Source: a virus. Taken from it: 25,299 nt of DNA. The stretch covers positions 1 through 25,299 of the IMG/VR virus record IMGVR_UViG_3300028596_000060; one strand, given 5' to 3'. The stretch's first letter is position 1; every line of letters starts with the position of its first letter. A model generated the notes under the pieces. The model saw only the letters and a program-made list of their open reading frames with translations, was not told the DNA's origin and did no database searches. Shown here one piece after another: positions 1-23,872 of this stretch. The translations under genes and the position numbers were made by a program.

Positions 1-414
1 TTCTTGATCATCGCCACGGTCTTCGCGCAGACCATGGCGATGATCAAGAAGCTCCAGGACAACAAGAAGTACGGACCGTACCGCTTGTACGTGCCGACTG
101 TTGTCGGGAACGCCCTTGACAACGACTACGACGCGACGAGCCCGTCGCAGGGCCTGACGATCCGTCAACGGCTCCTGAAGATCGAGAATCTTCAGGCGAT
201 CCGCGTGGCGGACCTCCTGCCGGCGACCAAAGTCGCGCTCGTGCAGATGACGTCGGACGTCATCGACATGGTCGTCGGGCAGACCCCGACGGTCATCCCG
301 TGGACGTCGCTGGACGGCTTCACGATCCACAACCTGGTCATGGCGATCATGATCCCGCGCGTCCGCTCGGACTACGACGGCAACAGCGGGATCTGCATCG
401 GGACCCTCACGTAA
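1..414 (+). CDS. Major capsid protein, C-terminal part (5' truncated)
   Basis: The frame is open from the first base and ends at TAA 412-414, so the gene starts upstream of the window. The visible 137 residues resemble the C-terminal half of HK97-fold major capsid proteins of the encapsulin-like DUF6260 type. Features seen are the segment YGPYRLYVP, a run of the form LRxRLLKIENLQAIRVADLLP, the stretch VALVQMTSDVIDMVVGQ, and the terminal pattern VMAIMIPRVRSDYDGNSGI. In such proteins the P-domain and A-domain strands of the capsomer lie here. Its position immediately before connector and tail genes is the usual place for the capsid gene. The N-terminal arm, any scaffolding segment and the E-loop are outside the window. 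Family assignment is from recalled motif similarity, not a search. Confidence 0.75.
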   Translation, partial: FLIIATVFAQTMAMIKKLQDNKKYGPYRLYVPTVVGNALDNDYDATSPSQGLTIRQRLLKIENLQAIRVADLLPATKVALVQMTSDVIDMVVGQTPTVIPWTSLDGFTIHNLVMAIMIPRVRSDYDGNSGICIGTLT

Positions 415-416
415 AC

Positions 417-437
417 GGAAGGGGAGCGAGCTTCCCC
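417..437 (+). other. Short hairpin after the capsid gene
   Basis: Just after the capsid stop codon two mutually exclusive short stems can form: GGAAG 417-421 with CTTCC 431-435, or GGGGA 421-425 with TCCCC 433-437. No T-run follows, so it is not a convincing intrinsic terminator. It may be a processing or stability hairpin that protects the abundant capsid message; this role is inference. Confidence 0.3.
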
Positions 438-457
438 CTCGAAAGGAGAAAGAGAAG

Positions 458-841
458 ATGGGCACAACCACGACACCGGCGGTAGTGACGGCCCCGGAGG
501 CCGCGGCGGCGGAGAAGCGCGCCGCGGTCGAAGGGGCGTCTTCCGTGGCGGACGCCGTGAAGAAGGTGGCGGACGCGGCGGTCGAGGCCGCGTCAAAGGC
601 GAAGACGGCGGGCCCGCCGCCCGAGATCACCGTCACGGCGAACGCGAAAGGGAAGTTCGTCATCCGCGGCTCCGGCCTCGGGAAGTCCGGGACGGTGAAA
701 TTCGGCCCCCACCAGGCGAACACCGTGGAGTGGGGCCCGGAGTACATCGCGGGGCAGACGCCCGGCGGGCTGTCCGGCGAGACGGAGGTCGTCGTGCACG
801 TCGACGACAGGACCTCGAAGAAGGCAACGATCGTCCTGTAG
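458..841 (+). CDS. Small protein with IPT/TIG (Ig-like) domain, possible capsid decoration
   Basis: This 127-residue protein starts at ATG 458, preceded by AGGAG at 444-448 with a 9-base spacer. Residues 1-50 are Ala/Lys/Glu-rich and probably helical or disordered. Residues 52-127 follow the IPT/TIG Ig-fold pattern: a strand ending in FVIRGSGLG, then SGTVKFG, then a VxWGPEYI segment, and a final strand with VVVHVDD. The fold call rests on this pattern. IPT/TIG and other Ig-like domains are common on phage surfaces, where they can bind glycans or proteins. Placement directly after the capsid gene suggests a capsid decoration or head-fibre protein, but this is inference; a head-assembly accessory is an alternative. 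No cysteines or membrane segment are seen. Confidence 0.6.
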   Translation: MGTTTTPAVVTAPEAAAAEKRAAVEGASSVADAVKKVADAAVEAASKAKTAGPPPEITVTANAKGKFVIRGSGLGKSGTVKFGPHQANTVEWGPEYIAGQTPGGLSGETEVVVHVDDRTSKKATIVL

Positions 842-858
842 TTGAAGTCGCCTCGAGG

Positions 859-881
859 CCGGAGGGTCTGGGACCCCTCGG
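859..881 (+). other. GC-rich stem-loop between small structural genes
   Basis: Bases 859-868 pair with 872-881 around a three-base loop (TGG). The inner five pairs (GGGTC/GACCC) are perfect, followed by one A-C mismatch, one G-T wobble and three more G-C pairs. No T-tract follows, and the RNA continues into the ribosome binding site near 885-890. It could be a weak terminator, an RNA-processing site, or a control of the next gene's translation. Confidence 0.35.
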
Positions 882-897
882 CGCAGAGGAAACGACG

Positions 898-1185
898 ATG
901 AACAGATTCTTATTGATATGGTCGCAGTTTTGGAGTCCAGCAATCATACTTTTGATTGAGCAGGTCGGACTTTTAGTCAAACAAGGAGAAAAAATCATGG
1001 CAGCGATCGATGATCTCAGAGCATTGCTTCAGCGTGTTGACGCGGCGACGACCGAGATCGCGGCGGACCTGCAGGCCCTGAAGGACAAGATCGGCACGCA
1101 GATGACCCAGGAAGAGGTCGACGAGGTGAAGGCAGGGCTGGAGGCCGCGGCCTCGAAGCTCGAAACCACGGCGGCGGGGCAGTAG
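898..1185 (+). CDS. Small helical protein with two candidate starts
   Basis: Unrecognised. From ATG 898 it is 95 residues; from the in-frame ATG 997 it is 62. The upstream start has AGAGGA at 885-890. The inner start has a better site, AAGGAG at 983-988, with an 8-base spacer. Residues 1-33 of the long form are hydrophobic (FLLIWSQFW...AIILLIEQVGLLV) and encoded in AT-rich DNA with codons (TTA, ATA, AAA) rare nearby; the remainder is GC-rich, acidic and heptad-like (IDDLRALLQRVDAATTEIAADLQALKDKI), suggesting a coiled coil. The long form would be a membrane-anchored coiled coil and the short form soluble. The short form is the safer annotation if only one is real. Small coiled-coil proteins of this kind occur in phage head or fibre modules; no function is claimed. 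Confidence 0.6.
   Translation: MNRFLLIWSQFWSPAIILLIEQVGLLVKQGEKIMAAIDDLRALLQRVDAATTEIAADLQALKDKIGTQMTQEEVDEVKAGLEAAASKLETTAAGQ
983..988 (+). promoter_or_regulatory. Strong ribosome binding site at internal start
   Basis: AAGGAG lies 8 bases before ATG 997, inside the longer frame that begins at 898. It is one of the best Shine-Dalgarno matches in the window, and supports translation of a 62-residue short form. Confidence 0.5.
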
Positions 1186-1187
1186 CC

Positions 1188-1337
1188 GTGTTCACGATAC
1201 CCATCGTCCTGTCGGGGCTCGCCTTGGCGTTCGGGAGCTACGCGGCGCTCAAGGAGCCGACGCTTGCGGCGCGGAGCTGCTTCGTGACGTCGCTCGTGGT
1301 CTTCATCCTCGCCGTCCTCGGCGGCCTGGGCCGGTAG
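1188..1337 (+). CDS. Small two-helix membrane protein
   Basis: A 49-residue frame runs from GTG 1188, two bases after the previous stop, to TAG 1335-1337, directly before the next ATG. It reads as two hydrophobic helices (residues about 2-20, IPIVLSGLALAFGSYAAL, and about 33-47, FVTSLVVFILAVLGGL) joined by a short charged loop containing KEPTLAARSC. It fills the gap between two well-supported genes exactly, which supports its reality. Function is unknown. Short hairpin membrane peptides in phages can be holin or accessory lysis proteins, but a place in the head/connector block gives no support for that here. Confidence 0.55.
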   Translation: MFTIPIVLSGLALAFGSYAALKEPTLAARSCFVTSLVVFILAVLGGLGR

Positions 1338-1919
1338 ATGGCCGTCATCGACGCGACGGTCGGCGGCGCGACCTCGAACTCGTATCTCACGACGGCCGAG
1401 GCCGACGCGTACTTCGACACGAGGACGGCGCTCGTGCCGCCGTGGGCCTCGGCCGCGGACCCTGAGGCGGCTCTGATCATGGCGACGCGTCTGATGGACG
1501 CGCTCGCGCAACCGTTCAAGACGTTCGTGCCGGGTCCTCCCGGGGACCCGGGCTATTACCGCGTCCGGCGACAGTGGACGGGCGCGGCGGCGACGTCGAC
1601 GCAGCGGCTCGCGTGGCCCCGCACGGGGATGCTCACCCGGAACGGATACCCACTCGCGTCGACCGTCATCCCGCAGGAGCTGAAGGACGCGACGGCGGAG
1701 CTCGCCGGGCAATTGCTGGCGCAGGACTTCACGCTGAATAACCAGGTCGCGCAGCAAGGTATCACGTCGGTCAAGGCCGGGTCCGTCGCCGTGACGTTCC
1801 GCGACGACATGATTTTCAAGCAAGTCATACCGGATGCCGTCTACGACTTGCTAGTGCAGTCGTGGCTGACGGATGAGGTGGTCGAGTCGGTCGGGCGGTT
1901 CGAATTCGAGGTGATTTGA
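1338..1919 (+). CDS. Head-tail connector (adaptor) protein, DnaT-like/gp6-like
   Basis: A 193-residue protein beginning at ATG 1338, directly after the preceding stop. The N-terminus has the pattern NSYLTTAEADAYFDTR followed by a region rich in Ala and helix formers (AALIMATRLMDAL), then LAWPR and a helix IPQELKDATAELAGQLL. This resembles the phage proteins annotated as 'DnaT-like' connector or HK97 gp6-like adaptor, which form a dodecameric ring beneath the portal. The DnaT-like label is a family name; there is no reason to think it acts in replication here. Location between the capsid and head-closure genes fits the adaptor role. The stop overlaps the next ATG by one base. Confidence 0.65.
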   Translation: MAVIDATVGGATSNSYLTTAEADAYFDTRTALVPPWASAADPEAALIMATRLMDALAQPFKTFVPGPPGDPGYYRVRRQWTGAAATSTQRLAWPRTGMLTRNGYPLASTVIPQELKDATAELAGQLLAQDFTLNNQVAQQGITSVKAGSVAVTFRDDMIFKQVIPDAVYDLLVQSWLTDEVVESVGRFEFEVI

Positions 1920-2137
1920 TGGCTTACTCTGTGGCGGCGTCCGGCATCATCAAGCATCTGATCGAGGAGGAGCTCATCCCGAAGGAGTCCCTCAACGTGC
2001 AGATCAACTTCCCGACCGATGGCGTCCTGACGGTTCGCTACGAGGTGTTCATGACGGGCGACAGGCTGGCGCGGTTCCAGCGGGCGTTCGCAAAGTTCCT
2101 GGCTGAGAACCCAGAGTCGGATTTGGTAGTGATATGA
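1919..2137 (+). CDS. Small hypothetical protein in connector cluster
   Basis: A 72-residue protein using ATG 1919, which overlaps the upstream stop (TGATG). Not recognised. It begins with a helix (GIIKHLIEEELIP), followed by two probable beta strands (LNVQINFP and VLTVRYEVFMTG) and a second helix (RLARFQRAFAKFLAENP). This alpha-beta-beta-alpha order gives a compact fold with no membrane segment or cysteine. Translational coupling on both sides implies co-expression with the adaptor and head-closure genes. A small connector or assembly factor is possible, but nothing in the sequence proves it. Confidence 0.65.
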   Translation: MAYSVAASGIIKHLIEEELIPKESLNVQINFPTDGVLTVRYEVFMTGDRLARFQRAFAKFLAENPESDLVVI

Positions 2138-2493
2138 GCATTCTCAGCAACGCCGTCGCGATTCTGGACTCCGTGACGCAGTCGCTCGGGCTGCAGTCCG
2201 AGGTCGTGCATTTCCATTGGACGTCGCAGAGCGACGACGGCGTGAAGGCGTTCACGCCTGCGGCGGGCACGAAGCGGAAGGCGACCTGGGACAAGCGCGT
2301 CCGTATAGTCGCGGGGCTAAATGGACAGCAGGTGACGTCGACCTCGAGCCTGATCTTCCCGCGGCCCATAGATGTGGACGCGCGCGACGAGTTCACGCTG
2401 CCCGACGGGAAGCTCGGGTTGATCGTATCGCTCAGCGGCTTCGGGGACCCGGTGACGAAGAAACCGTTCGCGACGGAAGTGTTTCTCGGATGA
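2134..2493 (+). CDS. Head closure (stopper) protein, putative
   Basis: A 119-residue protein starting at ATG 2134 in an ATGA overlap with the previous gene. The first 30 residues are helical (AVAILDSVTQSLGL) and the rest appears beta-rich (VVHFHWTSQ, KATWDKRVRIVAGLNGQQV, SSLIFPRPIDV). It ends with DGKLGLIVSLSGFGDPVTKKPFATEVFLG, matching the 'DG ... I ... hTEVyfG' C-terminal pattern of small phage head-closure/stopper proteins. These sit below the adaptor ring and seal DNA in the head. Gene order (adaptor, small gene, this gene, later gp10-like protein and tail terminator) agrees. Family assignment is inference from pattern and synteny. Confidence 0.5.
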   Translation: MSILSNAVAILDSVTQSLGLQSEVVHFHWTSQSDDGVKAFTPAAGTKRKATWDKRVRIVAGLNGQQVTSTSSLIFPRPIDVDARDEFTLPDGKLGLIVSLSGFGDPVTKKPFATEVFLG

Positions 2494-2654
2494 GCGTCGT
2501 CCACTTCTACAGGCCGATCCTCCGTTACGTCGAGGTCGGCGACGGCGAGGAGATGGCTGAGCTCGGCGATCTTCGCGCGAAGTTGTGGTTCATCCGGATT
2601 CCGTTGCGTGTTGCGGTTTGGCTCAAGTCTTGGAGACAGGAACATAAAGCATGA
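2490..2654 (+). CDS. Small hypothetical protein
   Basis: A 54-residue frame from ATG 2490 (ATGA overlap with the previous stop) to TGA 2652-2654 (ATGA overlap with the next gene). The product starts MSVVHFYRPILRYVEVGDGEE and ends in a basic, tryptophan-containing helix (LWFIRIPLRVAVWLKSWRQEHKA). Not recognised. The exact fit between coupled neighbours is the main reason to accept it. The amphipathic C-terminus might associate with membranes or another protein. Confidence 0.5.
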   Translation: MSVVHFYRPILRYVEVGDGEEMAELGDLRAKLWFIRIPLRVAVWLKSWRQEHKA

Positions 2655-4042
2655 AGCGCCTACTCTGGATCGGCGACGCGTGTGTGGATAGCGGTTTCGC
2701 GCGTGCTACGCATTACACGATGGAGGGACTCGACTATAGGCTCCGCGGCAAGTTCGATTGTTCGGTGCTGGGGCTGAACTACCTGGGCGACCCGCACCCG
2801 TACCCGTACAACGTCTACCCTTGCTGGCCGGGCCAGGACATGTGGGGCGTCGGCAGGCTGGAGCAGGCGCTGCCGTTCTGGCTCACGAATCCCGAGGCGT
2901 GCGGGATCGACGGCGCGTGGCCGATGCCCCGGCCGGACGTGGTTGTCGTGCAGAACGACCCGTGGAACGTCCCGTACTACACGGAGGTGCTCAAGGAGAC
3001 GGGGATCCCCATCGTCGCCTCGGTCCCCGTGGACGGGAAGAACTGCCGCGGCGGCACAGCGTCGGGCAAGACGATGAAGGAACTGGGGATGAACGCTCTC
3101 GCCCTGACCGTCTTCTGGACCGAGTTCGGGCGTCTCGAGGCGGAGCTCGGCGGCTACGAGGGACCGGCGGCCGTCGTGCCGCTCGGGGTCGATCGCGACA
3201 TTTATCACCCGTACGACAAGGCCGAGTCGCGGCGTTGGCTGGGGCTACCGATACCGGAGAACGCATTCCTCGCCGGATACGTCGGACGCAACCAGCCACG
3301 GAAGCGCCTCGACCTGACGCTCATGTACTTCGCGGAGTGGATCAAGAAGTACGATAGGCGCGACGCGTACCTCTTCGTCCACTGCGCGCCGACAGGCGAG
3401 ATGGCCTTCGACCTCGAGCAGCTTGTCCGGTACCTGAAGATACAGTCCCGCGTGATCGTCTCCTCGCCCGAGGCAAGGAAGGGCGAGACAGAGGAGACGC
3501 TCGCGCGGCTCTACTCGGCGTTTGACGTCCACATGTCGACGTCGCAGAGCGAGGGTTTTCATTTACCGTCGCTCGAGGCCATGGCCTGCGGCTGCGTCGC
3601 GATGGCGGGGAACTGGTCTGCGCTCGGGGACTGGGCGCGCGGCGCGGCGTACCTCGTCCCGTGCACGGGGAACATCTGCACGCACAATTCGATCAACGTC
3701 ATCGGCGGATTGCCGGACCGAGAGGCTTACGTCGTTGGGCTCGAGGAGCTGTACTCGGACCCGATCACGCGTCGGTGGTGGTCGCAGAAGGGCCTCGACC
3801 GGGCCGCCGAGCCGCGGTTCGATTGGAAGAACATCGGTGACGCGTTCGCCGCTGTCGTGGAGGGGGTTTTCAAGACCAAATCGCAGCCGCTCTGGAAGGG
3901 CGAGAAGCAGCTCCGGGATCCTTTCGAGGTCCCGCCGAAGCCCGTCGCGCCGAAGCTTCGCGTCTTGCGCGAGGGCTCCGTCCCGACGCCTGAACCTGAG
4001 GAACTGCCGGACCCCAATCCAGTTCATCGAGGATCTTTTTGA
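2651..4042 (+). CDS. Glycosyltransferase, GT4-like (GT-B fold)
   Basis: A 463-residue protein starting at ATG 2651, coupled to its neighbours. The N-terminal Rossmann-like half opens LLWIGDACVDSGFARATHY, a common start in GT-B enzymes. The donor-binding half begins near residue 207 with AGYVGRNQPRKRLDLTL, where R and K would contact the nucleotide-sugar phosphates. Near residues 298-314 is SEGFHLPSLEAMACG, the E-x7-E motif typical of family 4. The last 60 residues are proline-rich and low in complexity. The enzyme should transfer a sugar from a nucleotide sugar to an unknown acceptor in the cytoplasm. Its location among connector genes suggests virion protein glycosylation, as shown for some actinobacteriophage capsids and tails; modification of host glycans is an alternative. 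Donor and acceptor cannot be read from sequence. Confidence 0.85.
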   Translation: MKRLLWIGDACVDSGFARATHYTMEGLDYRLRGKFDCSVLGLNYLGDPHPYPYNVYPCWPGQDMWGVGRLEQALPFWLTNPEACGIDGAWPMPRPDVVVVQNDPWNVPYYTEVLKETGIPIVASVPVDGKNCRGGTASGKTMKELGMNALALTVFWTEFGRLEAELGGYEGPAAVVPLGVDRDIYHPYDKAESRRWLGLPIPENAFLAGYVGRNQPRKRLDLTLMYFAEWIKKYDRRDAYLFVHCAPTGEMAFDLEQLVRYLKIQSRVIVSSPEARKGETEETLARLYSAFDVHMSTSQSEGFHLPSLEAMACGCVAMAGNWSALGDWARGAAYLVPCTGNICTHNSINVIGGLPDREAYVVGLEELYSDPITRRWWSQKGLDRAAEPRFDWKNIGDAFAAVVEGVFKTKSQPLWKGEKQLRDPFEVPPKPVAPKLRVLREGSVPTPEPEELPDPNPVHRGSF

Positions 4043-4455
4043 TGGCTAAACTCATAGGCCTCTCGTACATGAAGGGCCGCCTGCTACGCTTCGCGCAGGA
4101 GTACCCACGAGTCGTGGGTCAGGCGCTCTACGACGAGCTGAACGAGATCGAGAAGCCGGAGTCGCAGCGCCGGATACCGAAGGACACGCATGCCGCGGAA
4201 CTTAGCGCCGTGGTGCTCGGGCCGGACATCAGGCCCGGCCGCGTCGTGGCCGCGCTGGCGTACGCCGCGCAGGGTGAGACGAACCCGAAGACCGGCGAGC
4301 TGGTCGAGACGTATATTGTCCCGCTCCACGAGAACCTCGACGCGATCCACCCGGTCGGCGAAGCGAAGTTCCTCGAGTCGGTGATGAACGAGTCTGAGCG
4401 CTTCCTCGGCGACCGCATCGCGCGGCGCGCGGGGGTCGAGAAGGTGATCGTCTGA
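4042..4455 (+). CDS. HK97 gp10-like tail completion/minor capsid protein
   Basis: A 137-residue protein using ATG 4042, which overlaps the upstream TGA. The N-terminal half carries a helix (LLRFAQEYPRVVGQALYDELNEI) and a segment with a strand (AAELSAVVLGPD). The C-terminus, YIVPLHENLDAIHPVGEAKFLESVMNESERFLGDRIARRAG, matches the 'YA ... HE ... hpvGqaKFLe' pattern of HK97 gp10-like proteins. Members act at the head-tail junction or in tail completion. Its place just before a probable tail terminator is the conventional order. Assignment is from the C-terminal pattern and synteny. Confidence 0.7.
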   Translation: MAKLIGLSYMKGRLLRFAQEYPRVVGQALYDELNEIEKPESQRRIPKDTHAAELSAVVLGPDIRPGRVVAALAYAAQGETNPKTGELVETYIVPLHENLDAIHPVGEAKFLESVMNESERFLGDRIARRAGVEKVIV

Positions 4456-4601
4456 TGTCTTTTTCGCCACTACCGCCACGTCGGCCCGATTACTTGACAG
4501 AGTTGCCATTTTCATTGGTACTGGCTTTTTTCGGCGTTATCTTGTTTTTGAGCTTCGCGTTGCTCGGCGCGACGTGGATTGTCATGAGGATATTCGGATG
4601 A
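4455..4601 (+). CDS. Small single-helix membrane protein
   Basis: A 48-residue frame from ATG 4455 to TGA 4599-4601, coupled at both ends by ATGA overlaps. It has a proline/arginine-rich N-terminus (MSFSPLPPRRPDYLTELP) followed by one long hydrophobic helix (FSLVLAFFGVILFLSFALLGATWIVM) ending in RIFG. Its DNA is noticeably more AT-rich than the neighbours, with TTT, TTG and ATT codons; this may simply reflect hydrophobic residues. The perfect fit between two coupled genes supports it. Function is unknown. Confidence 0.5.
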   Translation: MSFSPLPPRRPDYLTELPFSLVLAFFGVILFLSFALLGATWIVMRIFG

Positions 4602-4996
4602 GCTTCACCGACGAGATCAAGTCGAGGCTGGTCGCCCAAGGGGTGACGGATTTGATCCTCGTCGGCATGAAGCCCGTGCTTCCGGATGAGGCTGGAAAGA
4701 AGTTCATCACCATGCGGGAATACGGCGGACGCGCGCCGTGGCGCGTCCACAATACCGGAGCTGCGACGCGGTACGCGCGGCCGGGGCTACAGGTGATCGC
4801 GCACGCGCCGAACACGGTCGACTCCCTCGCGCTCGCGTATCAGGCTTACAACGCGCTTTGCTTCGTCAATACCGTGATAAGCGGCACGACCTACATACAG
4901 GTCAACCCGCTTCAGGAACCCTATCCTCTTGGTCTGGACACCAAGGGTCGTGTTCAATTCGTGTTCAACGTCGAGACATTGAAGACACCCTCATAG
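4598..4996 (+). CDS. Tail terminator / minor capsid protein, putative
   Basis: A 132-residue protein. ATG 4598 (ATGA overlap) is preferred over frame-open positions further upstream because it preserves the coupling seen across this cluster. An N-terminal helix (FTDEIKSRLVAQGV) is followed by mixed alpha/beta sequence: FITMREYGGRAPWRVHNTG, RPGLQVIAHAP, a helix with VDSLALAYQAYNAL, and terminal strands QVNPLQEPYPLGLDTKGRVQFVFNVETL. This layout matches the phage minor capsid/tail terminator family (PF12691-like), which caps the tail tube and joins it to the head. Its place immediately before the major tail protein supports the call. Confidence 0.6.
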   Translation: MSFTDEIKSRLVAQGVTDLILVGMKPVLPDEAGKKFITMREYGGRAPWRVHNTGAATRYARPGLQVIAHAPNTVDSLALAYQAYNALCFVNTVISGTTYIQVNPLQEPYPLGLDTKGRVQFVFNVETLKTPS

Positions 4997-5008
4997 GAGA
5001 CAGACACA

Positions 5009-5428
5009 ATGAGTCTAGCAGTAGCAGCAACAGGGATACTCGTCAAGAGGTCGGCGGGCATCAACACCACGTCGTACGTCACGGTCGGGGAGCTCACGAG
5101 CGTGACGCCGGCAGGGAAGAGCAGGAATAAGCTCGAGACGTCGACGCACAACGACGGCTCAGAGAGCTTCGTCCTGGGCATTCTCCGTCAGGGAGATCCG
5201 GGGTTCCACATCAACTACGTCGGGTCCGACGCGACGCACATTGCCATCATCGCGGACATCGACGGCAACATCCCGAACAGCTGGCAGTTCGCGTTCCCCT
5301 CGGGCGTGAAGCGCTCGGGCAACGCGCGCGTGCAGCAGTTCGTGTTCGATCCGGCGCCGGTCGATTCGATTCAGGGAGTGACGTGTGCGTTGGCGTGGGC
5401 CGGTCCCGTGACCGACTCTCCGACGTAA
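5009..5428 (+). CDS. Major tail tube protein
   Basis: A 139-residue protein with a good ribosome binding site (AGGAG 4995-4999, spacer 9) before ATG 5009, expected of an abundant product. The sequence is beta-rich: VGELTSVTPAGKSRNKLETSTHNDG, ESFVLGILRQGDPGFHINYVG, WQFAFPSGVKRSGNARVQQFVFDPAP. It matches the pattern of lambda gpV-type tail tube proteins, in which 'eltsvt' strands and a conserved loop of the form 'kr..ietT...dg...fv.Gl.d.G...f...y' form the hexameric ring. It lacks the extra C-terminal Ig domain seen in some relatives. It lies just upstream of the chaperone and tape measure genes, which is the canonical order. Confidence 0.8.
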   Translation: MSLAVAATGILVKRSAGINTTSYVTVGELTSVTPAGKSRNKLETSTHNDGSESFVLGILRQGDPGFHINYVGSDATHIAIIADIDGNIPNSWQFAFPSGVKRSGNARVQQFVFDPAPVDSIQGVTCALAWAGPVTDSPT

Positions 5429-5573
5429 AGAGGTCAGGCGCGCCACACGCGTCTTCCAGGCCGTCGGCCCCAGGCGTTTCGGTGGGTTTCGGCGCTACCA
5501 CCGGGGCGCTCCCGTCACGGCGACAATACGGGAGGGGCACATTTTCAACCAGCCGCTCTGGAGGCGGCGCATT
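5429..5573 (+). other. 145-base intergenic region with 7-bp hairpin
   Basis: This is the longest gap between genes in the window. CTCCCGT at 5509-5515 pairs perfectly with ACGGGAG at 5528-5534 around a 12-base loop, followed some bases later by ATTTTC. A weak terminator or mRNA-processing structure that lowers expression after the tail tube gene is plausible. The Shine-Dalgarno GGAGG for the next gene is at 5560-5564. No convincing gene was found in the gap on either strand. Confidence 0.4.
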
Positions 5574-6113
5574 ATGGCGACAGTACAAAATCCGGAAATG
5601 GCAGCGGAACTCAGGGGTTTGCTCGGGATCGACGATATCGAGAGGGTCGACGACACGGCGTTCAAGACCGTCGAGGTCCCGGAGTGGGGTGGAAGCATTA
5701 GGATAGGGACCATCAACGCCGGGACGATGCTCGAGTACGTCAAGTCGAACGACACGGCGGCGAAGTTCAACTCGGGCCTCAGGATGATCGTGGACAGCCT
5801 CGTCGACGCGAACGGTAAGCGCATCGGCCAGTTGAGCCACATGGAGATGCTCAAGAAGAAGAACAACATGGTCATCCAGAAGGTCGCCGAGGAGATCCTC
5901 AAGCTCAACGGTGTCGAGAAGAAGCCGTTCGATTTCCAAGACCGCTTGAAGGAAGCCGGGGAGGACCCGACGAAGCTCGGCGCTCTTATCGCCGTGCTCC
6001 GGCAGTCAGCGGACAGCCTCGAGGCGGCCGGGACGGACAAGGAGAAGCTGAAGGCGGTTGCCGCTGGGAAGGTTGAGGAAGACGCAAAAAACTCTTCAGG
6101 CGGGACGCCCTAA
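5574..6113 (+). CDS. Tail assembly chaperone, short form (gpG-like)
   Basis: A 179-residue protein starting at ATG 5574, with GGAGG 9 bases upstream. It is charged and mainly helical, with FKTVEVPEWGGSIRIGTINAGTMLEYVKS near residues 30-60 and helices around MEMLKKKNNMVIQKVAEEIL. Location between the tail tube and tape measure genes, and the downstream frameshift signal, identify it as the lambda gpG equivalent. In that system the short product and a frameshifted longer product coat the tape measure protein during tail assembly. The zero frame stops at TAA 6111-6113 after passing the slippery site at codons 171-173. A -1 shift there would yield a 300-residue fusion ending at 6475. Confidence 0.75.
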   Translation: MATVQNPEMAAELRGLLGIDDIERVDDTAFKTVEVPEWGGSIRIGTINAGTMLEYVKSNDTAAKFNSGLRMIVDSLVDANGKRIGQLSHMEMLKKKNNMVIQKVAEEILKLNGVEKKPFDFQDRLKEAGEDPTKLGALIAVLRQSADSLEAAGTDKEKLKAVAAGKVEEDAKNSSGGTP

Positions 6114-6132
6114 AGCGTTTCGCCTTCCGCCT
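6086..6132 (+). promoter_or_regulatory. Programmed -1 ribosomal frameshift signal
   Basis: The heptamer A AAA AAC occupies 6086-6092 with the zero-frame codons phased GCA AAA AAC, exactly the X XXY YYZ arrangement. Five bases after it, AGGCGG 6098-6103 pairs perfectly with CCGCCT 6127-6132, extended by G6104-T6126 and A6105-T6125 to an 8-pair stem. After a -1 slip the frame continues without stop from CTC 6092 to TAG 6473-6475. The slippery site is read directly; the stem's stimulatory role is inferred. Confidence 0.85.
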
Positions 6133-6475
6133 AGCGGCGCACATGCGGCGTCCCGACGTCTACGGGATGCTGCAGGAGATCCAGTGGAAGACGTTCGAGG
6201 ATTGGAGGATTTTCACTCAGCTGGAACCACTCGACAGGGAGGTCTACCAGCTCGCGTACATCGCCCAGATGCTGTTCAACATCCACAGGGATCCGAAAAC
6301 GCACCCGGACGGGTTGCCGATCGAGCGGTTCGTGCTGAGTTTCGACTCTGAGGAGGCGAAGCCGGAGGAGCCAGCGCAGACGGTCGAGTACATGGAGACG
6401 GTCCTCCTGGCGTGGATGGACGGGCATAACGCAAGCCTCAAAGAAAAAGGACAATGGCCGGAATCTTTGACATAG
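6092..6475 (+). CDS. Tail assembly chaperone, frameshift extension (gpT-like)
   Basis: This is the -1 frame read after the slippery site, adding 127 residues to give a 300-residue G-T fusion. It begins LFRRDALKRFAFRLAAHMRRPDVYGMLQEIQWKTFEDW. An internal ATG at 6143 exists but has no Shine-Dalgarno sequence, so expression by frameshifting is more likely than independent initiation. The region is helical and tryptophan-containing (WKTFEDWRIFTQLEP, VEYMETVLLAWMDGHNASL). The pattern FxxRxxxRFAFRLA...MQ..I....F.EW is frequent in gpT-like parts, which recruit the tail tube protein to the chaperone-tape measure complex. Its 3' end overlaps the tape measure start by 22 bases. Confidence 0.75.
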   Translation, partial: LFRRDALKRFAFRLAAHMRRPDVYGMLQEIQWKTFEDWRIFTQLEPLDREVYQLAYIAQMLFNIHRDPKTHPDGLPIERFVLSFDSEEAKPEEPAQTVEYMETVLLAWMDGHNASLKEKGQWPESLT

Positions 6476-9400
6476 GAACCCTTCAGGGGAACATCGAGAT
6501 CAGCGAGGAGATCACGAAGACCGCTGCCCGCGTGAACAGGGAGCTGGACTCTATCGGCTCCAAGTTCGACGGGATCACGAAGGGCCTAGTCATCGGTTCC
6601 GCTGCCATTGTCGGCGCGATAGGCGGGATCGCGGCGGGCATTGTCCTTCTCGGGGAAAAGGGCTCGACGATCCTTGGTGTCGAGGAGGCGTTCGACAAGC
6701 TCGCGGTGTCAATCGGGGAGACCGGCGACGCGTTGCTAGGTGGCCTGACGGAGGGGGTCAAGAGCACAGTTGACAGTTTTGAATTGATGCAGTCAGCAAA
6801 TCGCGCTCTGTCGGCCGGCGTGAAGTTGACTGCGGCGGACATGAAGACGCTCGGCAGCGTTTCCAGAGAGATGGGGAAGGCGGCAGGGACGGACGCGGCG
6901 ACGGAGCTCGACAAGCTGTTCAGGGCGCTGACGACCGGGCAGCCGCGTCTTATCCGTCAGTCCGGACTCGTGGTCGACCTGGAAAAGCACCAGAAACTGC
7001 TTGCGGCGAGTTTAGATACGACGGTAGATAAACTAAACCGTCATGGTCAAACCTTGGCCGCGCAGAACGCCATCATGGAGGCCGCGCGACAAAAGCTCGA
7101 GCTGTACGGCGAGTCGCAATTGTCATTCAAAGAGCGCGTGCAGCAGGCACAGGTCGCCGTCGGGGATTGGGTTGACACGCTCAGCAAGACGATAGCCAGT
7201 TCGCCCGCCGTGATGAAGGCGTTCGACGACGTCGCCAACGCGATAGCGGAGGCGTTTGGCGACAAGGGTCAGGGGCTGATCGACACGCTGACGAAAGGGA
7301 TTGACAAGTTCGCCGAGGGCGTGAGCTACGCCGCGCAAGGCATAGTCCCGTTGAAGAACGCGATCATGTCCGTCATCGACACGGTAAAGGGTTTCTGGGA
7401 CTGGCTTGTGGACTTGAACGACCAGTTCAAGATTACTGACACGGTCGTGAGGGTCGCGCGGGCGTCGTGGACGTTCCTCAAGGACGCATTCAACCTCGTT
7501 CGTGACGCTGCTGCCGGCGTGATCGCGGCATGGCGGCAGATGCCTGAGTGGCTCCAGCAGATTTCCAAGACGGCTCTTCTCGCCGGGGCCGGGATCACTG
7601 GCGTCACGGTGGCAGCCAACGCGGCGGCTGGCCCAATCGGGAATGTTGCCTCTAAGATGGCCGACTGGGTCCAGGGGGCAGGAGGCCTTGCGTCGCTCAC
7701 GAAGAACATAGTCCCGGCTGTTCAGAACATCGACAAGCTGATTTTTGCCATCAGTAACACGACGGTGGTCATCGGAGCGTATGTTATCGCGACGGATTCC
7801 ATGACCATCGCGACGACTTTCTGGACAGGCGCGATTGTCAAAGCAGAGGGAGCGGTCCTCACGCTGGCGACCAGCACCGGGCTGCTCGCGGCAGCGCAGC
7901 GGGTCGCGACGGGCGTGACGGCAATGGCGACGGCGTCGAAGACGGCTCTCGCCGGGATCACGTCGTTTCTTGTCAAGGAGACGATGTCGCTGCTCGCGAT
8001 GGTCGGGCTCGAGACTGCGGTCCAGCGGACGGCGACTGGGGCGACGACGCTGTATACAACGGCCAAGGGTCTTCTCGGCACGGTCACGACCTTCGTAACG
8101 GGGGTCATGACGAGGTTCACCGCGGCCATGGGCCTGACGTCGGCGGCCTTGAACGTCACTAGGATAGCGGCGGGGGCGACGACGGTCGCGATGGGTCTTC
8201 TCGGTACGGCACTACTCGCACTGACAAGCGGACCTGCCCTCGTAGCCATCACGGCACTTGCGTTTTCATTTGGGGAACTCAGCAAGGCGGTCAGCGATAC
8301 ATGGGCACGCTGGAAAGCTGGAAAGGAAATGGGGGCTGTAGAGTTTTTTACTCAACAGGATGAAGACAACTGGGTCCGCCGTATGTTCGGGATTGGGCAG
8401 GCAGCTCGCGACATGCGCGAGAAGGTTGTGGCCAATCTCCAAGCAATGGCCGAGGAAACACAGCGGTGGACGGACAACGTCACCGGCGCGGCGTTGGCTA
8501 GGGATGTTGCCGAGCTGACGAAGCGCTGGGAGTCGCTGTCGGATTCGCAACGGCGGAACGCTTTTGTCATGGGGCAGGTCGGCAAAGAGGCGCTCCTGCT
8601 GCGGAATCAAGGCATCCCGCTCCTGCATTATGAGCTCAACATCCTTGCCGACGCCGAGGAGAGAAGGACTAAGGTCTTCGAGAAGGGCAAGGGAGGAACC
8701 GACGACCTCGTCAAGTCGTTCGTAACAGCGGCGGAAGTCGCGGCGAAGATGCGACAGTCGCTCCGCGAGCTCAGCGTGCAGGCCGAGGGATTTTCACTTT
8801 TCGCGGGCGGCGACACGGAAGGGCTCCCGGTGAAGATGCAGCAGGAGTGGCTCGGAGCGCTACAGGCGATCATCGACAAGGGAGGGCAGCTCACCGCATC
8901 GCAGCAGCAGGTGTTCGACGTTCTCGACAAGACGGTCGGCAAGACGGCCGAGCTCGCCGGCATAGATGTTGGCCTATCTGAGGTAGCGCGGCAGGTGACG
9001 GCGATCGGCGGCGCGTTCGAATTATCAATACCGGCGCTAGAGAAGGTCGGAAAGCATCTGGCCGAGGTTCGGGAGCGTGGCGGCGAGATCCCTGAGGCAC
9101 TTCAACCAGCGCTCGATAGGTTCGACGCGTTTTCTATGCGTCTCAAGGACACGACGCAGGCAGCGGTCGACTCCCTTGCGGACTTTATCAACAGATCGAG
9201 GACCTTCAACGACGTGCTGGCGACGGCGCAGGCTCGGAATCTTCCAGACTATCTGGAGAAAGTTCAGGACGCCGCGGTCGCTCTTGATGACTTGAATCAG
9301 GAACTTCAACTGACTTCCGACGCCATTCAGTTCATGGGAGGCGTCGCCAGCATCGGGGCGTTGAAGCTTCAGGAGCTTGGCAAACAGTTGAAAGACTTGA

Positions 9401-19615: not shown

Positions 19616-19877
19616 GATCGTCGCGTCGGTCGAGGTCCTGATGGGCTCGGGCAACGGGCCCACGAAGTTGGCGGAGGCCAAGAAGCTGCTCATCGCCGCG
19701 TGGGCGGTCACCGAGGGCGTGGTCGGCAAGGACCTCGCGAACGACGCGGCCGTCGCGGCCTTGGCGGAGACGCTGATCGAGATGGCCGTGAAGCTGATGA
19801 ACATGCAGCCGGACATCGACAAGGTGGCGGGGCTCTTCCGCGCTCTCCGTCCATTGCAGATTGGAGGCACGCTGTGA
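19488..19877 (+). CDS. Small helical protein, weak similarity to LL-H-type holins
   Basis: A 129-residue protein. ATG 19488 is preferred over GTG 19479; no clear Shine-Dalgarno is visible before either. The first 30 residues (MTAPRSALQRSAQTDTIVAPAG) are polar. Next is MLKYLKYLPLLMKAAEIVASVEVLMG, a moderately hydrophobic helix, then KLAEAKKLLIAAWAVTEGVVGKDLANDAAVAALAETLIEMAVKLMNM. The latter is faintly like the C-terminal half of LL-H-type phage holins, which end in a helix of the form 'lIEaAVkelN'. This similarity is weak and unconfirmed. The stop codon overlaps the next gene's GTG (GTGA). Confidence 0.5.
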   Translation: MTAPRSALQRSAQTDTIVAPAGFNPLDMLKYLKYLPLLMKAAEIVASVEVLMGSGNGPTKLAEAKKLLIAAWAVTEGVVGKDLANDAAVAALAETLIEMAVKLMNMQPDIDKVAGLFRALRPLQIGGTL

Positions 19878-22800
19878 AAAAGATACTGCTCATCGCTGGA
19901 ATGTGGGCAGCTTTGTTGCTACCCACGCGCGCAGCGGCCCAGCCGCTACCGAACGACATACCGGACATCACGGCGAATTGCCCGAATACGGTCGTGGTAG
20001 GACAGACGCAGTCCATCGCAGTCCCCACCATTCTTCCGTGCCTCGGCATTCACGGGACCGTCAACGTGACGGCGCATCTCAGCGTCGTGAATCTGATGGT
20101 GTATCCGGGTGGGACGCTGACGTGCCGACCGCCGGCGAAGATCAGCTTCCAGCCGGTTCCGCCGGGTGATCCGGAGCTGTTCGGGACGAGCTTGATCTCG
20201 TTCGGGAAGTTCGATTGCCAAGGCACGCCGAAGACTGCTTGGACGCGCCTCACGCACGAGCTGCAGCCAGGCCAGTCGGTGGTCACGGTCGCCGAGGCAA
20301 AAGGTTGGCGCATAGGGGACGAAGTGGCGTTGCTCGATTCCCGCGAGGCGCCGGAAGAGGCATGGCCGGCGATGGGGAACCGGATGCCCGAGCGGTTCAC
20401 GCTCGCGTCCGGGGTCGGGACAATGTGGACGCTCAGCCGCGGGGCGGGATTCGAGTATCCGGGCATGCGTAACGGCGCGAAGGCGCTCGAGGGTCGCTTC
20501 ACCGCGATAGGGAATCTGACGCGCGACGTGGAGATTTTCTCCGAGAGTCCCACCGTGCGCGGCCACGTCCTGTTCAGCGGCAAGGCCGATATCGACGTCC
20601 GGTACGTGAAGTTCCGCGACCTCGGCCGAACGATGCTGACGCCGATCACGCCGACGCACCCGCGCGGCAAGTACATGGCCCATTTCCACATGATGGACCC
20701 GACCACGAAGCCGGCGTTCATCGGCAACGCGCTCGTCGGGTCGTCCAAGTGGGCGCTGACGGTGCACAGCTCGCACAATGGCACGTACACCGATCTCGTC
20801 ATCCTGGACTCGCTCGGCGCTGGGGTTATGACCGAGGTCGGCGACGAGCGTGACAACCTGTTCGAGCGCATTCTGGTGATGGGCGTGCGGGGCACGCACG
20901 CGCGAGCGGATTCCACCTGCTCGGGCGACGGCGCGAAGGGCTGCGACGGGACCGGCATCTGGATGGAAGGGACGTTGAACCGGGTGCGCAACAACGTCGT
21001 CGGCAATGCGCTCGTCTGCTACGACATCTGGGGCCGGACGATTGATCAGCGCATTCTGGAATGGGATCGGAATGAGGCCATCGGCTGCCGCGACGGCATG
21101 CAGATTTGGAACGTGCGTGGCGGCTCGGTGAACAACCAGATCGTCTGGCATTTCACGGACAACGGGCTTTACAGCTACCCGAGCGATAAGATCACGGTGA
21201 ACGATCTGATCGTGCGCGGGGACCCGCGCGTGGTGCACCCGGTCCACTATCTGTCGAAGGCTGTGTGGTGCGGCGACTACCTCTGCCAGGACTTCAAGAT
21301 CGTCCGGCCGAACATCCAGGGCGTGCGGACGGGCGTGCATTATCAATACGGGTGGTCCGGCGGTCCCGGTGAGCCTGGTGGGCCGTGGAGCGCGACTCTC
21401 CTGACGCAGACCGTGAGTGACGGGTTCTTCGACGGCAACGTATACGACCTGATGTGGCGTCAGGACAACCTCGCTCCGCAGCCGCTGTTACCCTCGATGC
21501 TGAGCATTGCGCGGAACAACCGGCACGGGCCGCTCTCGCAGTGGCACGCAGCGCGGCACGAGGGGTTGACGTCGCACATCGATGGATCGTCGACGATGCA
21601 GCCCGGCGCGACGGTGGCGTTCCAGGTCGAGGATTATCAACAGGACGCGGCGTCGGACTTTCAGGTGTTCTCCAACGAGACGAAGCCGCCGACCGGGACC
21701 GTCGTCACGCCGAAGGTGCTCGACGTCACGACGCCCGTCAGCGCTCCGCAGGCCGCGACGATCCAGATCACGCAAACGCCTCGGGTCGTGTGGCACTCGT
21801 GGCGTGGGACGATCCTCTCTACGACGCCCGACTACGACGGGATCACACCGGCCAAATGGGACGCGATCAACGCCGTCGCCGTCGACGACCTGGGCTACAC
21901 CGGCATGCGCGTGGACATGCATGCCGGCGTCGAAGGGGTGGCGGGCAACAACTACACCATCGTGAACGACAATGCTGACCCCAACGTGATCAATGCGGCT
22001 GGGTTCAACTTCTCGACCTACGACGTGGCGATGGACATCGCGGCGCGGTTCCGCCAGCGCGTGGTGACGACTGGGCAAACGCCGTTCATCCACCTGACGT
22101 ACGTCAACTTCGGCGGGCCGAGCATTCATCAGACGCCGGCCGAGTATGCCGAGTTCATGCTCGCGGTCTTTCAGCATCATCAGGCGCGGTACGGGTGGGT
22201 GCCCGACGCCGTCGAGGTCATGCTCGAGCCGAACGACGTGAGCGCATGGACCCCGCAGTCGTTGACGAACGCTTACGTCGCGGCGAGGACGCGTTTGAGC
22301 GCGGCAGGGTTCAACCCGCAGTTCCTCTACCCGGCCAACTCGAACACCGGCACCACGCCCGGATGGATCGACCAGATGAACGCGATCCCCGGCGCGATGG
22401 CGGCGACGGATGAGTTTACGTACCATCGCTATGGTGGACAGAATAGCGACCTAGACGCGATTGGTCAGCGACAGATCCAGTTCGGCAAGCGCACTGGACA
22501 AAACGAGTATTGGGGCGACTTCTTCACGCCAAACTCTGGCGCGGGCATATATCATTTCGTCGGGGACTACGGACGGGCGCGGAACTCGACGTGGACGAAA
22601 GGCATCCTGGCGGACAACTACGGATGCATTAACCAGATCGTCTACGTTCCTTCTGATGGCAGCGCTCCAAGAGCCTGCGACGTTGCGTGGCTCATGCGGC
22701 AATACACGAAATACGTGCGACCGGGCGCGCAGTGCTACGACGTGACCAACACGAGCCCGCACGAGGGCGCGATGGCCTGTAAGAATCCTGATGGCCGCTG

Positions 22801-23872
22801 GGCCGTCATCGTCGCCGGGACGCAGACGCTCGGGCCGTTCTCCGTCGGCGGGCTGCCGGCCGGGGTCTACGAGCAGTCGTTCGTCCACGCGGGGAACTTC
22901 TCGACCACGAAGTTTCCGGACGTGACGATCGCGGCCGGCGGCATCATCCAAGCCTCACTGCCGATGAACGGGGCCTACACGATCGTGTCGAAGACCGGCA
23001 CTCCGCCGCCGCCAGACGCGGACGGCGACAAGGTTCCGGACAGCCTCGACAAATGCGCCAACACCCCGGCCGGAGCAACGGTCGATGTGAACGGGTGCGC
23101 GCTGACGCAGCTCGACAGCGATGGCGACAAGGTCAACGATGCGGTTGATAAGTGCCCCGGAACACCACTCGGTACGACGGTGGACGCGACCGGCTGTCCG
23201 ATCGTGCAGCCGGTCACGATGACGGTCGCCTACGCGGGTATCACACGCGACGCCGTGTCGAACCTCACGCTCGCGGGCGACGGCATCAACGACCCGGCGT
23301 TCACGCTAACGTTCCCGGTGCCGACGACTGTCACGCGTGTCCGCGTGCTCGCCAGCGTGGGCGGTGCGTGGGACACGGATCCGGGAGTCTGGATCGTGTG
23401 CGTGGCTCAGTCGGCGACTGGCCCGTGCGTGAACACGGCTACCGGGGCATGGACGTCAACAGCGACCACCTTCACGGTGTTCGTCTCCGAGGGTGGCGCA
23501 CCGAGATTTCCAAATGGGTCGACGGCGACGATCACCGTCACGGTAGGTGGTATCAATGTTGTCGGGACAGTGAAGATCGGGACTGTGCCGCAACCGAAGC
23601 CCGTGGCGACGGCGACCAAGGTCTGTTCGTACAGCGTGACCGACGTTCCGCCGACGACCGACACCGGATGGAGCGTGCAGTTCGAGCGACGGCTGGGTCC
23701 GACCGGGACGTGGGTCAACCACGGACCGAGCGACGGCTCCGCGGTCGGCGGATACTCCAGCGCGGTTGATCTGGCGCACGGCGCGTGGGAGTTCCGGTCC
23801 GTCTGGACGCGCACCGGATCGTCGCCGGTCATCGGGGCCACGGTCGCGGCGACGGTCGGGAATTGCATGTGA
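19874..23872 (+). CDS. Secreted multidomain protein: signal peptide, G8/beta-helix, GH-A-like barrel, TSP3 repeats
   Basis: A 1332-residue protein starting at GTG 19874 (GTGA overlap). This start opens a Sec signal peptide (KKILLIAGMWAALLLP, cleavage after AAA22); earlier starts would bury it. Residues about 50-600 resemble G8-domain/CEMIP-type beta-helices: VYPGGTLTC, GWRIGDEVALLDS, NLTRDVEIFSE, RGHVLF and VRYVKFRDLGRT, then HFHMMDP and many NNQIVWHFTDNG-like coils. Residues about 638-980 look like a clan-A (beta/alpha)8 glycosidase with E785 in VMLEPND as acid/base, FTYHRYGG, and E878 in TGQNEYWG as nucleophile. Residues about 1048-1111 hold two calcium-binding thrombospondin type 3 repeats (DADGDKVPDSLDKC, DSDGDKVNDAVDKC). 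The final 220 residues are beta-rich. It is probably a secreted glycan-degrading enzyme; substrate unknown. Confidence 0.75.
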   Translation: MKKILLIAGMWAALLLPTRAAAQPLPNDIPDITANCPNTVVVGQTQSIAVPTILPCLGIHGTVNVTAHLSVVNLMVYPGGTLTCRPPAKISFQPVPPGDPELFGTSLISFGKFDCQGTPKTAWTRLTHELQPGQSVVTVAEAKGWRIGDEVALLDSREAPEEAWPAMGNRMPERFTLASGVGTMWTLSRGAGFEYPGMRNGAKALEGRFTAIGNLTRDVEIFSESPTVRGHVLFSGKADIDVRYVKFRDLGRTMLTPITPTHPRGKYMAHFHMMDPTTKPAFIGNALVGSSKWALTVHSSHNGTYTDLVILDSLGAGVMTEVGDERDNLFERILVMGVRGTHARADSTCSGDGAKGCDGTGIWMEGTLNRVRNNVVGNALVCYDIWGRTIDQRILEWDRNEAIGCRDGMQIWNVRGGSVNNQIVWHFTDNGLYSYPSDKITVNDLIVRGDPRVVHPVHYLSKAVWCGDYLCQDFKIVRPNIQGVRTGVHYQYGWSGGPGEPGGPWSATLLTQTVSDGFFDGNVYDLMWRQDNLAPQPLLPSMLSIARNNRHGPLSQWHAARHEGLTSHIDGSSTMQPGATVAFQVEDYQQDAASDFQVFSNETKPPTGTVVTPKVLDVTTPVSAPQAATIQITQTPRVVWHSWRGTILSTTPDYDGITPAKWDAINAVAVDDLGYTGMRVDMHAGVEGVAGNNYTIVNDNADPNVINAAGFNFSTYDVAMDIAARFRQRVVTTGQTPFIHLTYVNFGGPSIHQTPAEYAEFMLAVFQHHQARYGWVPDAVEVMLEPNDVSAWTPQSLTNAYVAARTRLSAAGFNPQFLYPANSNTGTTPGWIDQMNAIPGAMAATDEFTYHRYGGQNSDLDAIGQRQIQFGKRTGQNEYWGDFFTPNSGAGIYHFVGDYGRARNSTWTKGILADNYGCINQIVYVPSDGSAPRACDVAWLMRQYTKYVRPGAQCYDVTNTSPHEGAMACKNPDGRWAVIVAGTQTLGPFSVGGLPAGVYEQSFVHAGNFSTTKFPDVTIAAGGIIQASLPMNGAYTIVSKTGTPPPPDADGDKVPDSLDKCANTPAGATVDVNGCALTQLDSDGDKVNDAVDKCPGTPLGTTVDATGCPIVQPVTMTVAYAGITRDAVSNLTLAGDGINDPAFTLTFPVPTTVTRVRVLASVGGAWDTDPGVWIVCVAQSATGPCVNTATGAWTSTATTFTVFVSEGGAPRFPNGSTATITVTVGGINVVGTVKIGTVPQPKPVATATKVCSYSVTDVPPTTDTGWSVQFERRLGPTGTWVNHGPSDGSAVGGYSSAVDLAHGAWEFRSVWTRTGSSPVIGATVAATVGNCM
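23010..23206 (+). repeat. Two thrombospondin type 3 repeats (coding)
   Basis: Two tandem units of about 30 residues occur within the large secreted protein. Each begins D-x-D-G-D-K-V-x-D, followed by DKC, a short TP turn, TVD and a closing GC. The Asp spacing is that of calcium-binding thrombospondin type 3 repeats, and the two Cys per unit could form disulfides outside the cytoplasm. Such repeats are widespread in secreted and outer-membrane proteins of Gram-negative bacteria. Confidence 0.8.

Follow-up and report, generated by a model that had tools for sequence, protein, structure and literature searches.

The glycosyltransferase (GT) gene described here probably serves the late-expressed glycosylation of a putative virion acceptor. 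It lies in a stretch of 25,299 nucleotides (IMG/VR virus record IMGVR_UViG_3300028596_000060, positions 1 to 25,299; hereafter, the window). The original prediction had proposed that a capsid, tail tube or fibre protein is glycosylated, and it is supported in part. Virion glycosylation stands as the best reading, given the fixed genomic slot of the gene, the soluble sugar-tailoring enzymes that accompany it in relatives, the match to chlorovirus B736L and that of one partner family (c25) to Che8 gp110. The enzyme family and the principle were already known; what is new is the slot, the choice of a GT4 enzyme and the exchangeable toolkit.

The GT open reading frame (ORF) is complete and encodes 463 amino acids (aa) from an ATG start, with a catalytic part at residues ~1-408 and a disordered Pro-rich tail at ~411-463. 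The protein scored above the Pfam cut-offs for Glyco_trans_1_4 (PF13692; 38.4 bits, cut-off 27) and Glycos_transf_1 (PF00534; 34.6 bits, cut-off 26.4), and matched the PHROG glycosyltransferase family phrog_2170 (E=2e-22). In the family alignment A7, composed of the window GT and 54 viral relatives (55 members), both residues of the E-x7-E pair (E301/E309) were invariant, as were G15, D103, D128, R213, R217 and K218. This confirmed the complete enzyme with an E-x7-E motif that had been predicted. AlphaFold returned a confident GT-B model (pLDDT 84, pTM 0.84), a fold search of the PDB with this model retrieved GT-B proteins, and the GT (P0001) presented no TM-like segment. Judged from sequence and model, the protein is an intact, soluble GT-B/GT4 enzyme, which would be expected to catalyze retaining sugar transfer.

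The following features surround the GT gene in the window:

4 to 414, plus strand: major capsid protein (MCP), C-terminal part (DUF6260, phrog_771; homologous to annotated MCPs)
458 to 841, plus strand: small protein after the MCP, family c22, assigned by position and family; possibly a decoration protein
1338 to 1919, plus strand: head-tail adaptor Ad1 (DnaT_2; PF20557, E=2.6e-26; phrog_477, E=2e-29)
2134 to 2493, plus strand: head-closure/connector protein (weak match to phrog_3881 head-tail connector, E=0.0016; conserved family cl8); upstream border of the slot
2490 to 2654, plus strand: 54-aa ORF overlapping the stop of the closure gene and the start of the GT gene (from translation and junction sequences)
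2651 to 4042, plus strand: GT4-type glycosyltransferase of predicted GT-B fold (Pfam, PHROG, alignment A7, AlphaFold; closest PDB entry 3oy2)
4042 to 4455, plus strand: gp10-like protein (position; conserved family cl9, present in many loci); downstream border of the slot
4598 to 4996, plus strand: tail terminator (PF12691, E=7.7e-7)
5009 to 5428, plus strand: tail tube protein (phrog_158, E=1.1e-10), of a type found mostly in cassette-minus phages
5574 to 6113, plus strand: tail assembly chaperone (phrog_344, E=4.7e-14)

The chaperone gene is followed by one for a Phage_tail_T-like protein and by an ORF of 1674 aa, which weakly matches a tail-protein family (phrog_1204) and presumably encodes the tape measure protein. 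Two sibling contigs (L008 and L013), belonging to the same phage, extended the gene map upstream of the window with the terminase large subunit, the portal, several ADP-ribosyltransferase-like proteins, a DUF2213 protein and the remainder of the MCP, which is complete (366 aa) at L008:4664-5764. The portal protein (Phage_portal_3; L013:4439-7039, minus strand) has a 2'-5' RNA ligase-like domain fused to its C-terminus. Three ADP-ribosyltransferase-like proteins of 585 aa, 441 aa and 574 aa, the last being a Mu-F fusion, are encoded between the portal and the DUF2213 protein (L013:2183-3940, L013:861-2186 on the minus strand, and L008:3-1727, respectively).

The GT had been described as translationally coupled between the head-closure and gp10-like genes. 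The stop-start overlaps are real, with the gp10 start coinciding with the GT stop (TGATG) and the 54-aa ORF ending 4 nt inside the GT start; it is this ORF, however, and not the closure gene, that stands directly upstream. The label "gp10-like" holds as to conserved family and position, on which the name rests because neither Pfam nor PHROG gave a match. A scan of window positions 400-6600 revealed no sigma-70-type promoter-like site, terminator-like sites occurred at chance level only, and the GC content (0.65) and GC3 (0.85) of the GT are the values of its neighbours. The overlaps, the lack of a promoter-like site in that interval and the neighbour-like GC together make the GT look like an established late-operon gene. 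The 54-aa ORF has a GC3 of 0.73, below that of the neighbouring genes.

Relatives of the GT are encoded by at least 587 IMG/VR viral stretches, as retrieved in a collection scan with profile A2 (profile A1, made of six divergent GTs, was too diverse); the locus analyses drew on the best 80 per scan of these. GenBank phages contributed only seven matching records, corresponding to five phages, with 24-28% identity over the whole protein. The gene directly after the GT, surveyed in 70 distinct loci, encoded a tail tube protein in 22, a tail terminator in 21 and a gp10-like protein in 18.

Avoiding selection on the GT, we have also assembled a locus set chosen by capsid protein or adaptor Ad1, with slot counts limited to distinct loci having the closure-to-tail junction in view (n=47). 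The junction between head-closure and gp10/tail-terminator genes held a GT4 in 29 of the 47, was empty in 17 and held something else in one. Of the 17 empty sites, 15 had closure and gp10/terminator genes that directly adjoin or overlap each other (-35 to +1 bp), as in locus L257 (...GGCTGA/TGGCG, the slash marking the junction); the empty junctions of L257, L276 and L241 are of the type TGATG or ATGA. Filled slots span 1.2-11.7 kb in the pooled set, where 36 of the 37 cassettes end with the GT4 and 9 hold it alone, and the operon strand carries 150 of 153 cassette genes. Recurring in tens of distinct phages, this arrangement is not due to chance. The GT relatives of phages S-EIV1 and TJE1 lie outside structural modules.

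A Pfam census covered 108 genes lying upstream of the GT as far as the last recognised head gene. Glycos_transf_2 accounted for 20 matches, followed by Glyco_transf_7C (7), DegT/DnrJ/EryC1 aminotransferases (6), sugar C-methyltransferases (Methyltransf_13/14; 4), radical SAM and B12-binding proteins (4), hexapeptide transferases (4) and cupin/Polysacc_synt_C (2). Several methyltransferase families were present, including Methyltransf_24/RMNT_CmcI, with both O- and C-methyltransferases. By these family assignments, the interval content is a predicted sugar-tailoring toolkit. TM-like segments were seen in 9 of 153 cassette genes, mostly where the slot also holds non-glycan genes. The window phage carries a minimal cassette, the GT plus the 54-aa ORF: neither sugar-synthesis genes nor accompanying sugar-modifying enzymes were found in the window, whereas many relatives have them in their slots.

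Some slots had further content. A B12-binding radical SAM protein encoded in one glycan slot (L079:4333-5934) has relatives in several loci. Most of the TM-like slot genes, one of them lipoprotein-like, are held by L028:2577-7703 and L033:2390-7744, and the scanned slot genes included, as non-glycan cargo, a muramidase-type endolysin.

The closest described system is the virion glycosylation of phages Corndog and Che8. In Corndog, the portal and protease genes enclose those of an O-methyltransferase, two GTs and an N-acetylglucosaminyltransferase, and modification of its capsid has been proposed (PMC4351075). PMC12363180 reports glycosylated virion proteins in Che8, Corndog and Myrna (see also PMC11256854 for virion glycosylation), and names Che8 gp110 and Corndog gp38 as essential for glycosylation, the former for that of the capsid. 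Krili, a Corndogvirus with the gene order of Corndog, stood in for Corndog in our sequence comparisons. As in Corndogvirus (cluster O) and Che8 (gp108-110), phage-encoded GTs are combined with a methyltransferase in the slots of relatives, and the location inside the structural operon, seen in Corndog and Krili, is found again in the window gene order and the conserved slot. The Corndog slot lies, however, between portal and protease instead of closure and gp10, the Che8 GTs lie at the 3' genome end, and the GTs of these phages are unrelated in sequence to that of the window and include no GT4. Profile A7 gave no match to Che8 108-110 or Krili 32-35, and the window GT4 accordingly showed no homology, in these two phages, to GTs with a demonstrated role in virion modification. 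Cassette family c25, from the slots of relatives, remotely matched Che8 gp110/Krili gp35 (hhalign 92.8%).

The best PDB match of the GT family profile was B736L of chlorovirus PBCV NY-2A (PDB 3OY2/3OY7; E=7e-27, runner-up 1.7e-7), which also came first by fold (TM 0.81). The RNxxRKRLD motif and the E-x7-E region are common to both proteins; B736L differs in coming from a eukaryotic virus, and the identity over the fold alignment is ~19%. Chloroviruses glycosylate their own MCP; for B736L, the donor was inferred as GDP-Man and the acceptor was not established, with mannose being absent from the capsid glycans of its virus (PMC9614988).

Among other phages, Pontimonas phage phiPsal1 and Microcystis phage Mae-JY09 encode GT relatives between the MCP and neck/adaptor genes, slightly upstream of the closure-gp10 slot. 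The second GT of phiPsal1 matches cassette GT2 family c11 (E=3e-29), and this phage also has a methyltransferase; in the literature searched, we found no published test of virion glycosylation for either phage. In Synechococcus phage S-CBS4, the slot is that between portal and MCP. The GT lying here among portal and head genes is a closer relative (25% identity, 88% coverage), and after it come a c11-type GT2 and a methyltransferase. The original prediction could tie the context of the GT to no described case; with the Corndog-type GTs between portal and protease, and the relatives near head genes in phiPsal1, Mae-JY09 and S-CBS4, it has become less isolated.

As to the acceptor, co-occurrence of the GT with particular capsid or tube genes had been suggested as a check. 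In the GT-independent set, picked by MCP or Ad1, the cassette accompanied one tail-tube type in 23 of 23 cases (23 plus, 0 minus) and the other in 2 of 10 (2 plus, 8 minus; Fisher p=3e-6, without correction for relatedness). The window tube, however, is of the second type, being 58-65% identical to those of cassette-minus phages and 22-33% to those of nine cassette-plus phages. Since the window and three other phages break the rule, tube type as a target marker is a lead only. Comparison of the Ser/Thr content of virion proteins between cassette-plus and cassette-minus phages gave no convincing target, with only the TMP reaching p=0.03, uncorrected for ten tests. By MCP and Ad1 the window phage stands nearer to cassette-plus phages, and by its tube to cassette-minus ones; the two parts meet in a mosaic junction between terminator and tube.

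A more specific proposal would be that tail-tube (or neck/tube) glycosylation is widespread in uncultured siphophages, with the GT4 of the closure-gp10 slot and an exchangeable sugar-diversifying toolkit decorating the tube. This would be consistent with the 23/23 versus 2/10 association, the other tube type of the window phage speaking against it, and we regard it as tentative and rather doubtful.

Virion glycosylation in general could proceed as follows. The GT, as the constant member of a glycan cassette in a fixed late-operon slot between head-closure and gp10-like/tail-terminator genes, would be made together with the head and tail proteins, use a nucleotide sugar supplied by the host (GDP- or UDP-linked) and transfer the sugar, in the cytoplasm, to a protein of the phage virion. 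The acceptor would most plausibly be abundant and exposed, such as the tail tube or capsid protein. In relatives, the extra enzymes (GT2s, DegT aminotransferase, O/C-methyltransferases and B12-radical SAM proteins) may diversify the sugar, the GT4 adjoining gp10 being kept while the other cassette enzymes vary. The benefit might be shielding, adhesion or stability.

Several findings speak against virion glycosylation: the minimal cassette of the window, the missing match of the GT4 to the Che8 and Krili GTs, the mannose-free capsid glycans of the virus that encodes B736L, and the location of the S-EIV1 and TJE1 relatives. The fixed location of the GT could instead reflect co-expression or insertion tolerance, and not a virion target. 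If the slot were a permissive insertion point of the late operon, the GT would be moron-like cargo with no functional tie to the virion, and the clean empty sites, the variable cassette content, the endolysin-type gene in some slots and the weak correlation between GT4 and structural-protein divergence (rho -0.1 to 0.44) are all compatible with this. We consider it quite improbable, as the slot genes are overwhelmingly glycan-related, the GT4 sits at the downstream edge in 36/37 cases and there are precedents of structural-operon GTs modifying virions. Moreover, the promoter and terminator of its own that a moron would have were not found: no promoter-like site was seen from 400 to 6600, terminator-like sites were no more frequent than expected by chance, and the gene borders show stop-start overlaps. 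The same embedding in the late operon, lack of a promoter-like site and conserved placement among head-tail genes make it unlikely that the substrate of the GT is a glycan on the surface of the infected host (LPS, capsule or teichoic acid), be it for superinfection exclusion or for keeping progeny off debris. LPS and capsule are commonly built by GT4 enzymes, related GT4 genes are found on chromosomes, mainly of Verrucomicrobia, outside recognisable prophages, and late expression could still help to free progeny from debris; yet the cassette enzymes are soluble, and no GtrA/flippase/polymerase or acyltransferase families were found among the 25 commonest cassette families. A gtrABC-type seroconversion cluster would comprise the membrane flippase GtrA, GtrB and a GtrC that spans the membrane; here, the GT has no TM segment and GtrA is missing from those 25 families.

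A virion acceptor and late expression would equally fit a GT acting specifically on tail fibre or other receptor-binding proteins and so altering host recognition. The window does encode large tail proteins, including the CEMIP-type one described below, but the cassette adjoins neck and tail-tube genes instead of fibre genes, and this option is very improbable. Some phages glycosylate DNA bases with GTs, and a role of this kind on modified bases of the phage DNA was weighed as well. With cassette partners that are sugar-tailoring and GT2 enzymes, and no base-modification genes in the window or in the sibling-contig genes examined (the contigs being incomplete), it appears exceedingly improbable.

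To our knowledge, virion glycosylation among phages has been proven in only a few mycobacteriophages. From the presence of a GT at the same junction in many uncultured relatives, often with a sugar-making toolkit, it would seem that these phages sugar-coat their own particles. If true, the recurrence in many environmental phages of such a cassette, conserved and exchangeable, beside the genes that join head and tail would point to sugar-coated virions as a common trait, which would bear on the shielding and adhesion of phages, their host range and phage therapy. The slot offers a concrete place in the genome to look for virion glycosylation, with natural cassette-minus relatives as controls.

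Two further observations were made. A 1390-aa tail-region protein encoded at window positions 19700-23872 contains a CEMIP-type beta-helix (PF24606, E=7e-12). In Verrucomicrobia genomes (L094-L112), the related GT4 lies in a conserved chromosomal neighbourhood that is not prophage-like, with upstream genes encoding proteins of ~507, ~389 and ~533 aa and a downstream gene encoding one of ~300 aa.
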